Below, in pieces: positions 1,285 to 5,901 of a stretch of 6,198 bases of DNA. How positions within the stretch are numbered: the first letter of the stretch is position 1; every line of letters begins with the position of its first letter. The translations under genes were made by a program, and so were the position numbers. Below the pieces are notes generated by a model. The model searched no databases, was not told the origin of the DNA, and worked only from the letters and a program-made list of their open reading frames with translations. Source of the DNA: Nitrospirae bacterium CG2_30_53_67 (lineage in GTDB: Bacteria; CG2-30-53-67); assembly GCA_001873285.1 (NCBI GenBank), contig MNYV01000077.1, forward strand, positions 1 to 6,198, in the 5' to 3' direction.

Positions 1285-1557
1285 TTAGATGGCATCAGGA
1301 AGTTTCAATTGATGCTGTCTTCTGAACTGTATGGTCTTGTCTTTTATGCCTTGAGAAATATCGATGACGGGAATTTCGCGTAGGAGTTCCCTGATTTTTT
1401 GTTCTTCCCCGGCGGTCAAAGATGGGTAGGACAATAGCTCGAGTTCGGTAACAAAAGAAATATAAAATTCGCCTTCCGGCAAGGCAAGGATATCTATTTT
1501 CTTCCCTATGACATAGAGAAGAATGTTCGTGTCAAGGAGGAATTTATTTCCACTCAC
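1285..1557 (-). pseudogene. VapC-like PIN-domain toxin, C-terminally truncated
   Basis: The 90-residue product begins with FLLDTNILLYV (first PIN acidic residue in LDTN), has a second conserved Glu in the TELELLSYPSL stretch, and the third acidic position in KLPDAI. The stop codon follows DAI at once. PIN toxins normally continue after this motif (often IIAATA and a TRN-D-F strand) for about 35-45 residues, so the last strand and the fourth acidic residue are absent. The 64 bases downstream contain no continuation in any frame. PIN toxins are Mg-dependent ribonucleases that cut tRNA, rRNA or mRNA; this one is probably inactive or reduced, which is inference. The start is GTG at 1557, overlapping the antitoxin gene by 14 bases, a normal VapBC arrangement. 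The AAA_14 ATPase gene begins 64 bases further on, so the truncation may date from its arrival. Confidence 0.8.
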
Positions 1558-1699
1558 TCCGCACCCGCCTTTGGTATTCTATAGGTTCTTCCTCAAGATG
1601 CACGGCGCCGGCGTAGGCTTTGAGCTTTTCCCTCGTCATGCCTTGGCGGCCTGATTTGAGCATCTGCTCGATTTCCTTCCATTCATCGTAGCTGATAAT
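1544..1699 (-). CDS. Small VapB-like antitoxin, non-canonical or lost start codon
   Basis: The reading frame gives 51 residues from an ATT codon at 1699: an acidic helix SYDEWKEIEQMLKSG, a linker with MTREKLKAYAG, and a tail EPIEYQRRVRSEW. The AYAG plus YQRR-R-EW tail is the type of short antitoxin seen just upstream of PIN toxins, where the C-terminus binds the toxin. The stop TAA (1546-1544) lies inside the toxin gene. No ATG, GTG or TTG occurs between the in-frame TGA at 1750-1748 and the internal ATG at codon 13. The related fragment at 4641-4692 has ATG exactly where this copy has ATT, so either ATT is used as a rare start or the gene is dead. Residues FSVEV just upstream of the ATT also partly match the second copy, so the original N-terminus may have been longer and replaced by the repeat. 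No Shine-Dalgarno is seen. Confidence 0.6.
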   Translation of the reverse strand: MISYDEWKEIEQMLKSGRQGMTREKLKAYAGAVHLEEEPIEYQRRVRSEWK

Positions 1700-1710
1700 G
1701 ACTTCGACTG

Positions 1711-1976
1711 AAAAAGCAAGGAGAAAAAGGGCGAGAAATTTCTCATCTCAAGGGTAGTCCGTTATCCGAGGGGCTTGCCTGTGTGCTCTTATTCCTTGTC
1801 TCCGGCGAATTCAAGGCAAGACAAACCGGATTGTCCGGTCGATGACAAGGGGACGTATGGATTGTCCGATCAAGCCTGTCTGCGCCTGCCTGTGCTGTGC
1901 GGCAGCACGCAGACAGGTGCGGACACGCACATGCAAGCCCCGGTAAACCGAGGGCAAGTCGGACAATGACAAACTG
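1711..1976 (+). repeat. Interspersed repeat, copy 1 (longest, with nested insertion)
   Basis: The block shares extended similarity with 4701-4872 and 5703-5871: a purine-rich start with GAGAAA, CTCATCTCAA, TTGCCTGTGTGCTCTTATTC, CCTTGTCTCCGG, ATTCAAGGCAA, then GGTAAACCGAGG and GACAATGACAAA at the end. Potential stems include TTGCCT/AGGCAA and the terminal pair TTGTCCG/CGGACAA. Copy 1 differs by a doubled GGATTGTCCG unit (1828 and 1859), a nested palindromic insertion and a perfect palindrome GAGAAATTTCTC (1733-1744). It encodes nothing convincing; open frames over it are fortuitous. It resembles REP/MITE-like intergenic elements. It directly abuts the antitoxin 5' end, so any transcript for the VapBC remnant must start in or beyond it. 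Confidence 0.8.
1871..1939. repeat. Nested 57-bp palindromic insertion with 6-bp direct repeat
   Basis: Relative to copies 2 and 3, copy 1 carries 57 extra bases (1877-1933) bounded by CAAGCC at 1871-1876 and 1934-1939. The insert carries a strong hairpin: CCTGTCTGCG (1875-1884) pairs perfectly with CGCAGACAGG (1908-1917), with an inner TGCTG/CAGCA stem (1893-1897, 1903-1907). The left outer arm begins in the last bases of the first CAAGCC. The direct repeat resembles a target-site duplication, but could also come from slippage. Confidence 0.6.
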
Positions 1977-2543: not shown

Positions 2544-2748
2544 AACCCGACGAGATAGAATGAGGGAAAGAGGCTTTCACCCAAATTCTTGACTCCGCAA
2601 CGGTTTTCTGTTAGCTTCTCATCAACGATTTAGAACCCTTCCAGGACGGACACGGGGAGGTCTGATAGTGTACAAGGGATTCGTGTGGTGATCGACAACC
2701 AGGAGGACCGGTCCGGTCTTCCCCGATTTTCTCTGGGTGTGACTGGCG
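2544..2748 (+). other. Intergenic region before the GHKL ATPase gene
   Basis: No convincing gene. A weak promoter candidate reads TTGACT (2589-2594), 17-base spacer, TAGCTT (2612-2617). An AGGAGG (2701-2706) is too far (43 bases) from the ATG at 2749 to serve it. The bases just before that ATG include GGGTGTGA (2735-2742), a poor Shine-Dalgarno match. Confidence 0.35.
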
Positions 2749-4545
2749 ATGAAGCGGAAAAAAAGAACTCAGAACGGAGGCAAACTCCGTATCGGCGATA
2801 GCTGGAACGCCATCACGATCATTGCTCTCTCACAGAGTAATCCCTTGAAGGCGATCGCGGAGTTTGTGGAGAACAGCATCGATGCCCATGCGCGCAACGT
2901 GACCATCATCCGGGGGCGGGACAAGGGCGCTCCTTACCTCAAGGTCATCGATGACGGCGACGGGATCCCCCTGGACGGCGACGGGCTTCCCAACTTCAAG
3001 TATGTCGCCACCCATATCTGCGATTCGATCAAGAGGCAGTTGAAAAGGGAGGGGGCCTCGAACCTCCAGGGGGAGTTCGGGATCGGTCTGCTCAGTTTCT
3101 GGACCGTCGGGGAGGAGTTGAGACTCGTTTCGGCATCGAGTGATGGCAAACACTATGAGATGGCGATGACCAAGGGATCGCCCGGTTACCAGATCGGCCG
3201 GCGGCATACTCTCCTCTCCTCCGAGGGGACGGAACTGACCATCTCCCCCTTGCTTCCGGGGGTACGCCACCTCAACGGGGAAAAGATCCAGCGCTATCTG
3301 GCCTCGGAGTTGCGGGACCGGATCCGGAGATCCGGCGTGAAGATCAAGGTGGTCGACCGGACAGCGAGAAAGGAGATCCCCGTGGAGCCCCGTGAGTTTT
3401 CCGGCCGGCTCCTTCACCAGCTTCCTGAGGCGGTCTCTCCGGCGGGCGAGATCTATCATGAGATCTACCTCAACGAGTCGAATACGGAGAACCGCGTGGG
3501 TTTGTACCGCTCGGGGACACGGGTCATCCCTTGCATCACCGAACTGGAACGGTTCAACCGGGAACCCTGGACCTCGGGCTGGCTCGAAGGGATCATCGAT
3601 GTCCCCTATCTCAATCTGACGCCGAGCACCCGGAGCGGTATCATTCAAGACGAACGTTTGGAAGATTTTTCGACTGCGATTCATCCCCTTGAAGAGAAGC
3701 TCATCGAGATCGTGGCGGAGCAGCGAAGGGCCGAGGAGGAACGGGCAAGCCGGAAGATTCTGAAGACGGTACAGAATGCCCTGAAGGAGGCGATCCTCTC
3801 GCTTCCGCAGGAAGAATACGACTGGTTTGATATTCACGTCCGGTCCCGGAGCGGGAAACCTTCCGTGGAGCGGGAGGCCGAAGGAGACGCGGTCGAGGGG
3901 AAGGCAATCCCGGAGGAAACCAGGGAAGGCCCCCGTCAGAAGGAGTTTTTTGAGTTTGCCGGTCCTCTTTTCAGCGCGCGTATCTCTCCGGCTTCTGCCG
4001 TTGTCGCCGTGGGAAAGAGCAAGGGATTCCGGGCGGTCCCCCGGGACAAGAGCCGGAGACTCGTGGAAGAAGGCCTGACCTTCGAATGGAAGATTGAAGA
4101 AGGGGGCGGAAGGCTGGAGGACCCCACGGACGAGATTGTCACATTCACCGCGCCCGCTGAACCGGGCCTGGTGAAGTTGTCCCTTACCGTAACGCAGGGA
4201 GAGACGGCCGTGACTGCCGAGGGGCTTGTTACCGTTTCCGATTCGATCCTGCCGAAACAGCCGGGCGGAGATGCTGCGGCCAAGGGACTACCCGGTTATA
4301 CCTTTCAGCGGGCGCCGGGAGATCTCTGGCGGTCGAGGTATGAAGAAAAGCAGAATCTCATCGTCATCAACAATGGGCACCGAGATTTCGTCTATGCCTC
4401 CAAGAGCCGGGCGAGGAAGCTCCGTTACATCTGCCGCCTTTTTGCCAAGGAACTGGTGTACCGCAATTTTCCCGGCATGCCTGCGGACCAGCTCCTGGAG
4501 CGAATGATCGAGCTTTCCCTCTACACCGAAGAGCACCTCAAATAA
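2749..4545 (+). CDS. Solitary GHKL (Hsp90/MutL/MORC-like) ATPase with Ig-like and conserved C-terminal domains
   Basis: The 598-residue protein begins with a basic tail (MKRKKR) and has a full Bergerat ATP-binding fold. The N box is EFVENSIDA (E38 probable catalytic base, N42 for Mg, D45); the G1 box is DDGDGIP (68-74); the G2 box is GEFGIGLLSF (108-117). Residues 235-305 look like the MutL/MORC-type transducer domain, with LYRSGTRVI and LTPSTRSGIIQDE. A charged, probably coiled-coil helix follows (312-350), then a low-complexity acidic linker (370-400). Residues 405-498 look like an Ig/cadherin-like beta-sandwich (ARISPASAVVAV ... TFEWKIEEGGG ... EIVTFTAPAEPG ... LVTVSD). A C-terminal domain (514-598) holds LWRSRY, LIVINNGHRDFVYA and a helical end. 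No signal peptide or membrane segment: cytosolic. GHKL proteins of this shape dimerise on ATP; the substrate here is unknown. TGA at 2740-2742 bars an earlier ATG. There is no partner gene in the same direction. It is more GC-rich than the flanking TA genes. Could be a chromatin-remodelling, repair or defence ATPase; undecided. Confidence 0.92.
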   Translation: MKRKKRTQNGGKLRIGDSWNAITIIALSQSNPLKAIAEFVENSIDAHARNVTIIRGRDKGAPYLKVIDDGDGIPLDGDGLPNFKYVATHICDSIKRQLKREGASNLQGEFGIGLLSFWTVGEELRLVSASSDGKHYEMAMTKGSPGYQIGRRHTLLSSEGTELTISPLLPGVRHLNGEKIQRYLASELRDRIRRSGVKIKVVDRTARKEIPVEPREFSGRLLHQLPEAVSPAGEIYHEIYLNESNTENRVGLYRSGTRVIPCITELERFNREPWTSGWLEGIIDVPYLNLTPSTRSGIIQDERLEDFSTAIHPLEEKLIEIVAEQRRAEEERASRKILKTVQNALKEAILSLPQEEYDWFDIHVRSRSGKPSVEREAEGDAVEGKAIPEETREGPRQKEFFEFAGPLFSARISPASAVVAVGKSKGFRAVPRDKSRRLVEEGLTFEWKIEEGGGRLEDPTDEIVTFTAPAEPGLVKLSLTVTQGETAVTAEGLVTVSDSILPKQPGGDAAAKGLPGYTFQRAPGDLWRSRYEEKQNLIVINNGHRDFVYASKSRARKLRYICRLFAKELVYRNFPGMPADQLLERMIELSLYTEEHLK

Positions 4546-4640: not shown

Positions 4641-4692
4641 GCCTGATTCGAGGATCTGCTCGATTTCCTTCCATATCATCATAGTTGATCAT
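4641..4692 (-). pseudogene. Frameshifted 5' fragment of a second VapB-like antitoxin copy
   Basis: The minus strand from ATG at 4692 reads MINYDD and then leaves frame. With one extra base removed near 4673-4678 it continues as W-KEIEQ-LESGG, matching the antitoxin at 1544-1699 (ISYDEWKEIEQMLKSGR). The nucleotide match with 1649-1711 is close until about 4641, then fades. No toxin gene follows. Repeat copy 2 joins its 5' side at the same place as copy 1 joins the other antitoxin, so both probably descend from one repeat-antitoxin junction. Confidence 0.7.
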
Positions 4693-4700
4693 GACTTCGA

Positions 4701-4872
4701 GTGAAAAGGAAAAGAGAAAAGGCCGGGAAATTCCTCATCTCAAGGGGGGCCCGTTATCCGAGGGGCTTGCCTGTGTGCTCTTATTCCTTGTCTCCGGTGG
4801 ATTCAAGGCAAAGAAACTGGATTGCCCGGTCAAGCCCCGGTAAACCGAGGGCAAGCCGGACAATGACAAACT
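4701..4872 (+). repeat. Interspersed repeat, copy 2
   Basis: Same element and orientation as copies 1 and 3. It shares a 68-base exactly identical block with copy 3 (4767-4834 against 5768-5835). The terminal stem is TTGCCCGG (4822-4829) with CCGGACAA (4856-4863), one mismatch. An inner CCCCGGT-AA-ACCGAGG stem is also possible. It lies between the antitoxin fragment and the TumE-like gene. No coding content is credible. Confidence 0.85.
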
Positions 4873-4909: not shown

Positions 4910-5302
4910 TCAGTCTTCCTTCCGACCGGCTATGCTTTCTATTTCTTCAAAAACGTTCGTAAGTCTGATAAGGTGGGATTCAGCGATGCCTCCACTTCTA
5001 AGGTGTTTGTGGTGCGGGAAAGAGGTCAGATTTCTTGCTCTTGGATCGGGTGCGTTATCGTAGCGGAAGAGAACATCCGCCCCATAGCGGTAGTTGTAAC
5101 CGTATGAATATTTTTCCACGACCTGGCCCTTGTGTTCGACGAACTCCTTGAAGTCGAGCGTGAAACCATTCTTGAACTCTATTGTGCCGGAAATGAAGGC
5201 GATGTCGCTCGTTTTCCTGTCGATGGTGAGGATGTATGAGGAGACGATGGAATAAGAGGCGATGAGCGTTTCCACTTCGGCGATGTAGTTATCGATACTC
5301 AA
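4910..5302 (-). CDS. TumE-like toxin (DUF6516 family)
   Basis: The 130-residue protein shows the DUF6516 signature: an N-terminal alpha/beta part with FKNGFTLDFKEFVE (43-56), then YSYGYNYR (65-72), FRYDNAPDP (79-87) and FPHHKH (95-100), with a short helical tail. These aromatic and His-rich motifs probably form the active or binding site. Members are annotated as the toxin of a TumA/TumE-type TA pair; the cellular target is not shown here. The start is TTG at 5302, overlapping the antitoxin gene by 14 bases, with GAGG about nine bases before it. This coupling and the rare TTG start should keep toxin output below antitoxin. Length is normal and all motifs are present, so the gene looks intact. 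Family call is strong; toxicity is inferred. Confidence 0.85.
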   Translation of the reverse strand: MSIDNYIAEVETLIASYSIVSSYILTIDRKTSDIAFISGTIEFKNGFTLDFKEFVEHKGQVVEKYSYGYNYRYGADVLFRYDNAPDPRARNLTSFPHHKHLRSGGIAESHLIRLTNVFEEIESIAGRKED

Positions 5303-5564
5303 AATTGATTTCCTCGAGGGATTTCAATTTCCGCTCGACCCGCTTCAGTGTTTCAATCTCGCCTTCCCACTCGAGAAGTTCCATATCCCCGATTTTACCG
5401 TAGAGCTTTTTCCGGTCCGGTGAGCCGTACTTTTTCTCAAACTCCGTGATCTTGTTCCGGATTCTTTCCACGGTCTTTCTGAGCACATGGGCTTCAGTGT
5501 CGATGGCAATCTTGATTCTTTCGCGTGTCCAGTTGTCGTCTGCTTCGATGATTAACTTGGTCAC
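5289..5564 (-). CDS. Putative TumA-like antitoxin, upstream partner of the DUF6516 toxin
   Basis: The 91-residue, highly charged protein starts MTKLIIEADDNWTRERIKIAI and continues with a long helical segment (25-45, VLRKTVERIRNKITEFEKKYG) and a second charged helix (68-85), likely coiled-coil. It is the typical first gene of a DUF6516 toxin pair, and its 3' end overlaps the toxin start. The start is GTG at 5564, with a strong GAGGGGGTGA (5571-5580) seven bases upstream. A later start would remove the conserved N-terminal strand. The identity rests mainly on position, size and charge; the protein sequence itself is not strongly recognisable. It probably binds the toxin and represses its own promoter. 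Confidence 0.75.
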   Translation of the reverse strand: MTKLIIEADDNWTRERIKIAIDTEAHVLRKTVERIRNKITEFEKKYGSPDRKKLYGKIGDMELLEWEGEIETLKRVERKLKSLEEINFEYR

Positions 5565-5609: not shown

Positions 5610-5702
5610 TCGGTACCCTTGCTTGGGAAAGGTAGATTTCTCAAGCAGGTGAATGCAAGTTCAGGATAGCAGGTGGTTTCAGGCATGTCAATAAGAATCC
5701 TG

Positions 5703-5871
5703 TGGAAAATCAAGGAGAAAAGGCCGAGAAATTCCTCATCTCAAAAGGGGTCCGTTACCCTATGGGGTTGCCTGTGTGCTCTTATTCCTTGTCTCCGGTG
5801 GATTCAAGGCAAAGAAACTGGATTGCCCGGTCAAGGCCCCGGTAAACCGAGGTCAAGCCGGGCAATGACAA
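5703..5871 (+). repeat. Interspersed repeat, copy 3
   Basis: Same element as copies 1 and 2, starting near TGGAAAATCAAGG and ending at GGGCAATGACAA. The terminal stem TTGCCCGG/CCGGGCAA (5823-5830, 5857-5864) is perfect here. The antitoxin piece seen beside copies 1 and 2 is absent. It fills the gap between two divergently transcribed TA-type genes. Open reading frames across it on both strands are not protein-like. Confidence 0.85.
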
Positions 5872-5901
5872 GGCGCCGTCATCCCCGGCTCCGGGTGTCA
5901 T

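Follow-up and report, generated by a model that had tools for sequence, protein, structure and literature searches.

Stand-alone GHKL ATPases with an inserted Ig-like domain form an apparently undescribed, patchily distributed bacterial family

The 6,198-nucleotide contig C77 of Nitrospirae bacterium CG2_30_53_67 (genome G000), which was analysed in its entirety and is called the window here, raises the question of what a solitary GHKL ATPase with an Ig-like insertion and an unassigned C-terminus does for its host. GHKL ATPases underlie chaperoning, mismatch repair, topoisomerases, MORC chromatin silencing, and several defence systems. To our knowledge, the mechanism of stand-alone GHKL-S5 proteins that have neither a nuclease nor an operon partner is poorly known.

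The window contains an intact reading frame of 598 amino acids (coding part 2749-4542, stop through 4545), with an in-frame TGA at 2740-2742, just 5' of the ATG start. The gene is single copy in G000, where it was the sole match, and Rfam gave no match in the window. Its parts, and two flanking features, are listed below; L002 is the corresponding locus of sister genome G001, and L082 holds a distant relative.

2749..4545, + strand: whole gene of the 598-aa GHKL ATPase; ATG start, colinear in a 36-sequence full-length alignment
2749..3348, + strand: GHKL (Bergerat) ATPase domain, residues 1-200; HATPase_c_3 at E 1.7e-9, and model compared with Hsp90 N-domains
2860..2874, + strand: motif I, E38-F-V-E-N42; E38 and N42 invariant in 36/36 sequences and in Ig-less relatives
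2950..2964, + strand: motif II, D68-D-G-D-G72; D68, G70, and G72 invariant, Ig-less relatives included
3067..3099, + strand: motif III or ATP lid, Q107-GEFGIGLLS-F117; invariant or nearly so in 36/36
3349..3678, + strand: middle (S5/transducer-like) domain, residues 201-310; conservation, and Foldseek against Hsp90 N+M
3679..3834, + strand: long helix and Y357-D-W359-F360-D361 box, residues 311-362; box invariant, model helices at 312-350 and 354-359
3835..3945, + strand: acidic disordered linker, residues 363-399; variable in length, highest dN
3946..4239, + strand: Big2-like Ig domain, residues 400-497; beta-sandwich in the model, LigA match at E 4e-4, missing in L082
4285..4542, + strand: C-terminal domain (CTD), residues 513-598, b-b-b-a-a; most constrained part, no PDB sequence match
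2652..2720, + strand: relic of an ERCC4-HhH (XPF-like) nuclease gene; 14/23 residues identical (61%) to the L002 ERCC4 protein
3-1220, - strand: AAA_14/DUF4143 ATPase gene; 406 aa open in the window, C-terminal end beyond the contig edge

Comparison with L002, the nearest relative (89% identical), gave a dN/dS of 0.149 for the whole gene. Thus, the gene is under purifying selection, which the original prediction had considered probable. Among the parts of the protein, the CTD showed the lowest dN and dN/dS (dN 0.010, dS 0.391) and the linker the highest dN (0.116). The window and L002 loci are orthologous, and their flanks have eroded differently: the DUF4143 ATPase gene has lost its middle part in L002, where it is a 108-aa fragment, and the ERCC4-HhH nuclease gene is mostly lost from the window. 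Because the GHKL gene is whole in both sister genomes amid this differing decay of its neighbours, we conclude that it is maintained.

The ATP-binding motifs proved intact, as had been claimed: E38xxxN42, D68xGxG72, Q107GEFGIG113, and G160-T161 were invariant or nearly so in the 36-sequence alignment, and E38 is the predicted general base of the ATPase. HATPase_c_3 was the sole Pfam domain above cut-off in the window protein and was also found in 36/36 aligned relatives. The wording of the ATP lid is Hsp90-like and aligns to Hsp90 GQFGVGFYS. The middle domain contains invariant R254, R258, and R295 and an LTPxTRxGII loop. In the AlphaFold model (mean pLDDT 70), the ATPase core, middle domain, and Ig domain were well modelled, the C-terminus was uncertain, and the linker (352-401) was disordered. 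The modelled N-domain matched HtpG/Hsp90 N-domains with a VIA Z of 16.9 (range ~16-17; rmsd 3.0 over 169 residues), so that the modelled protein has the Hsp90 N-terminal ATPase fold, and in some rows Foldseek aligned the model to the Hsp90 N+M domains over ~380-410 columns. Assignment of the middle domain to the S5/Hsp90 type is thus supported at the level of the model. By sequence, its profile scored 18.2 against the Hsp90 middle domain, below the shuffled maximum of 21.5, and the domain alone was no more similar to Hsp90 or MutL than shuffles were. Full-model fold searches returned mainly Hsp90 and, among viruses, topoisomerase and RIIA; the RIIA match was set aside, as what the two proteins have in common is just the generic GHKL-transducer build.

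Three known identities were considered and rejected. PF00183 had 0 matches in the window protein and 36 members at E values up to 1, which rejects HtpG, and the NCBIfam mutl equivalog reached 31.2 bits against a cut-off of 180, which rejects MutL. A close match to a housekeeping family, which would have spoken against the original prediction, was not found in these searches. The MORC motif GhXhhpXXRhl of the S5 domain was absent from all 36/36 aligned members and from L070, L071, L082, L084, and L085, and MORC identity was rejected. We conclude that the window protein is a stand-alone GHKL ATPase with the build of Hsp90, MutL, and MORC proteins, from a family that appears not to have been described before.

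The model matches raise the possibility of a specialised Hsp90-like chaperone or maturase, whose N and middle domains would clamp a dedicated client that the Ig domain and CTD bind. Its best structural matches are Hsp90s, its lid reads GEFGIGLLSF as in an Hsp90-like protein, and the NCBIfam HSP90-family model PRK14083 matched in part (E 4.1e-7). The host genome, moreover, has no recognisable HSP90/HtpG: PF00183 had no match in G000 and its close relatives, and other bacteria of the same sample have HSP90. However, the window protein itself lacks a PF00183 match, its middle domain falls below the shuffled maximum, and its CTD profile scored at shuffle level against the C-termini of Hsp90 (and of MutL). 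A rare and patchy gene with no client gene beside it also fits poorly with a chaperone, and we consider this role somewhat unlikely.

An Ig-like beta-sandwich had been proposed between the ATPase core and the C-terminus, and the structure prediction agreed: residues ~404-497 were all-beta in the model with good confidence. A 22-row profile of this segment matched Leptospira LigA Big2 over its first 40 residues at E 4.2e-4, a value that needs divergent members in the profile and is 0.08 without them. The distant relative in L082 (513 aa, 25% identity) matches colinearly across the ATPase domain, middle domain, helix, and CTD, and a short linker replaces the Ig domain. The relative in L071, whose reading frame is broken, appears to be a second Ig-less member; its CTD matches the family profile at E 3e-8. 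Because these distant relatives keep the GHKL domain, middle domain, and CTD, we interpret the Ig domain as an insertion and the three retained parts as the core. We found no description of a bacterial protein that combines a GHKL domain with an inserted Ig domain in the open-access papers searched. A ParA-like gene was observed directly after the Ig-less relative in L071 (1-1900; G038). In L082, a 185-aa gene (611-1168, + strand) that reads like a DNA-binding protein overlaps the Ig-less GHKL gene by 4 bp and is a possible partner of its product.

The C-terminus had been described as conserved and without a family, and both points were confirmed by the substitution rates given above and by the CTD profile, which matched zero PDB chains by sequence. 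Searched alone against ~1150 genomes, this profile found the CTD solely at the C-terminus of the family, apart from one borderline match (E 0.01). The model of the CTD has three strands and two helices in the order b-b-b-a-a, at modest confidence (pLDDT 67). Its best 12 Foldseek rows were IrrE, PprI, selecase, and a 6cyy-type M. tuberculosis regulator, at insignificant E values of 0.28-2.1 and with low VIA Z against IrrE/PprI/selecase-type chains; we take the M. tuberculosis regulator to be IrrE-related. Against an ImmA/IrrE (M78) alignment that we built, the CTD profile scored 18.4 with just 16 residues aligned, a score reached by 2/200 and 0/150 column shuffles. The HExxH zinc site is absent from the family CTD, and an invariant K567-E568 stands at a like position. 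An inactive zincin-like fold is, in our view, a lead and not a finding. Extended to the whole protein, this lead would yield a new immune or genome-control system, in which a mobile single-gene GHKL clamp drives an inactivated zincin-like CTD (IrrE/minigluzincin fold, H-to-K) and the Ig domain is a cytosolic recognition arm; we regard such a system as a long shot.

A scan of the genome collection returned 43 matching loci; identities are 45-89%, and wherever the contig is long enough the match is colinear from end to end. These loci span at least ten phyla; their hosts include Desulfobacterales, other former Deltaproteobacteria, Gammaproteobacteria, Burkholderiales, Acidobacteriota, Planctomycetota, Bacteroidota, Omnitrophota, Goldiibacteriota, Kiritimatiellota, Nitrospirota, and Bdellovibrionota. 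Phyla were intermixed in the tree, where a Saprospiraceae bin and a Granulosicoccaceae bin were paired with 100/100 support (87% identity) and Acidobacteriota were nested inside a proteobacterial clade; this mixing rests on metagenome bins, in which mis-binned contigs are possible. CTD-profile matches occurred in 6/386 diverse genomes, 4/395 genomes of one phylum, and 3/369 genomes of one class, and the prevalence of the family is ~1% of the genomes sampled. Two matching copies were present in four genomes, in one of which one copy has an in-frame stop and the second is cut by the contig. In genome G003, the GHKL gene (L047 1501-2574) is cut after residue 358. The reverse-strand stretch beside it looks like a candidate REP-type (Y1) transposase gene. 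The best reading is that the family is laterally moving and accessory. The distribution did not refute the proposed role in mobile-DNA control or defence, as patchy spread across phyla and extra copies are compatible with a defence gene or another mobile accessory gene. The phage, plasmid, and viral-contig collections searched held zero relatives.

A link to defence islands, which had also been proposed, was neither upheld nor refuted by the gene context. Matches to PADLOC models (E below 1e-10) were found for ~12/140 ORFs near the GHKL genes (within 3.5 kb) versus ~4/118 farther away in the same loci (Fisher p 0.07); these counts are approximate because the PADLOC tables list families, not proteins. 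The near matches were Fic, HepT-type, DUF4143, and AbiEii genes, one SNF2-type helicase, an exonuclease, and others, and by Pfam the neighbours were mainly metabolic and housekeeping genes. The protein itself had no convincing model match in PADLOC 2.0, the sole match being REase_II (E 0.0011) over 58 GHKL residues.

These data bear on the idea of a single-gene anti-phage system, which would sense a phage component through the Ig domain and CTD and then shut down the cell or the phage. Such a system would be in keeping with the ~1% prevalence, lateral spread, and extra copies, with the Abi, Fic, HepT/MNT, and DUF4143 genes sometimes found nearby, and with the existence of other GHKL defence proteins (VcSduA, PMC12137116, and the MZA and Tiamat models in PADLOC). 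However, no effector domain was recognised in the protein, no PADLOC family matched it, and its mostly housekeeping neighbourhood is not significantly enriched in defence-type genes. We judge an anti-phage system of this kind to be quite unlikely.

The surroundings of the gene had been described as decayed, and this holds for some parts of the window and fails for others. Signs of decay are the ERCC4 relic, what may be a DUF4143 remnant, and duplicated debris of an antitoxin, whereas the PIN, TumE, and DUF4160 genes are intact and the AAA_14/DUF4143 gene is also present. The PIN-domain toxin gene lies at 1285-1557 (- strand), and an open frame just upstream (~1558-1711, - strand) reads like an antitoxin. 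The TumE-family toxin gene (4910-5302, - strand; PF20126, E 3.6e-16) is preceded and overlapped by a 91-aa gene (5289-5564, - strand) that may be its antitoxin. A small DUF4160 gene is located at the contig end (5993-6187, + strand). DUF4160 genes are often half of a two-gene unit. A direct repeat is dispersed on both sides of the GHKL gene (window 1649-1975, 4641-4872, and 5702-5874, + strand). It consists of 138 nt and a 42-nt part, with a spacing of 2992 bp across the GHKL gene, and the two copies nearest this gene have an additional 34-nt piece in common; a fourth near-full copy is present at G000:C164, and many partial copies occur elsewhere. The repeat enters the apparent antitoxin coding sequence, which suggests a duplicated and decayed toxin-antitoxin segment.

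The gene had been called solitary, and the survey of loci agrees: no gene was common to more than a few of the 44 loci, and a conserved neighbour was found in 0 of 44. In the sister genome, an ERCC4-HhH nuclease gene is intact upstream of the GHKL gene, with ~44 bp between its end and the GHKL start, and in the window and in L003 (G005) just its N-terminal remnants are left, at differing distances from the GHKL start, which suggests two ERCC4 losses. A paralogue of the nuclease is present at G000:C88 (61% identical). These relics mark ERCC4 directly upstream of the GHKL gene as the ancestral arrangement in the host family. The linkage is confined to the host family and was absent at the other loci surveyed. 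A GHKL-ERCC4 partnership is possible in the host lineage and is no trait of the family, and a conserved operon partner was rejected.

If such a partnership reflected the function of the gene, the protein might act in repair or recombination as a MutL-like ATPase, licensing the XPF-like nuclease that was originally its neighbour. The intact gene and its relics, the second ERCC4 gene surviving at G000:C88, and the MutL-like profile of the N-box argue for this interpretation. However, the linkage is restricted to the host family, ERCC4 was apparently lost twice while the GHKL gene stayed whole, the MutL score lies far below its cut-off, and no DQHA of the MutL endonuclease motif DQHA(X)2E(X)4E occurs in the translated sequence. 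We hold a MutL-like role to be quite unlikely.

The best explanation, to which we assign a probability of roughly 0.42, is an accessory ATP-gated clamp that acts on DNA-protein complexes and serves mobile-DNA control in the paraMORC sense. An accessory-factor role appears likeliest because the family is patchy and has extra copies, yet is accompanied by neither a nuclease nor a methylase. It is established that GHKL proteins work as dimers whose middle domain resembles a clamp (PMC12137116). The homodimer, ATP cycle, substrate, DNA binding, and biological role that we infer for the clamp would fit together as follows. Two subunits would be held together by the CTD, or by the long helix with the CTD. 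Once ATP is bound, the N-terminal domains would close round the substrate while arginines of the middle domain complete the ATP site; hydrolysis would then set the substrate free. Held by a flexible acidic tether, the Ig domain would have no catalytic part and would instead serve as a docking arm for the substrate or a partner, and the clamp would draw on unlinked host enzymes. Several points count against a clamp on DNA-protein complexes: the modelled N-domain fold is nearest to Hsp90, a protein chaperone; the genes lack the conserved restriction-modification, helicase, or nuclease neighbour of most MORC/paraMORC genes; defence genes nearby are weakly or not enriched; and no homologue turned up on sequenced phages or plasmids.

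With its invariant motifs, diagnostic CTD, insertable Ig domain, and natural Ig-less relatives, the family is well bounded and therefore testable. It could reveal whether compaction of the MORC type or clamps of the Hsp90 type operate in bacteria beyond the known systems.

Compared with known systems, the inserted domain resembles the Big2 domains of LigA/LigB and of bacterial teneurin-like proteins, which the first half of the beta-sandwich matches by profile. Unlike in LigA/LigB-type proteins, it lies between an ATPase and a CTD, with no surface repeat array and no other sign of export. The family shares with Hsp90/HtpG the N-terminal Bergerat fold, the lid wording, and the position of the middle domain as modelled, and differs in the missing PF00183 match, the lack of a recognisable Hsp90 C-terminal dimerisation domain, the Ig insertion, an unrelated-looking CTD, and a very patchy distribution. 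With MutL it shares an ExxxN box region that is most MutL-like by profile and the order of GHKL, middle, and C-terminal domains; the DQHA endonuclease motif is missing and the CTD is different. VcSduA, a GHKL-Shedu defence protein with a nuclease, for which E27A and nuclease variants were tested and loss-of-function variants reported (PMC12137116), is likewise a single-gene GHKL protein of comparable rarity (~1%). In contrast to VcSduA, which has a DUF4263 nuclease, no nuclease was recognised in the window protein, and Pfam found no domain besides HATPase, DUF4263 (Shedu) included, in it and its 36 relatives. MORC/paraMORC ATPases are described by Iyer et al. (2008; PMC2292703) as laterally mobile GHKL-S5 proteins, among which paraMORC families have other C-terminal extensions and some paraMORC3 genes stand alone. 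The window family differs in its Ig domain and in having no RecB-type, TIR, or HxH extension and no restriction-modification/helicase neighbourhood; no SFII helicase, DNA methylase, or endonuclease neighbourhood was conserved across the 44 loci, and one SNF2-type helicase was found among 140 neighbours. With respect to paraMORC proteins in the broad sense, the GHKL motifs are intact, and the S5 domain is backed by the model match to Hsp90, not by sequence. On the modelled structure, the family would share with MORC/paraMORC proteins a GHKL domain, an S5-like middle domain, and a C-terminal extension, and like them it is sporadic and apparently laterally mobile.
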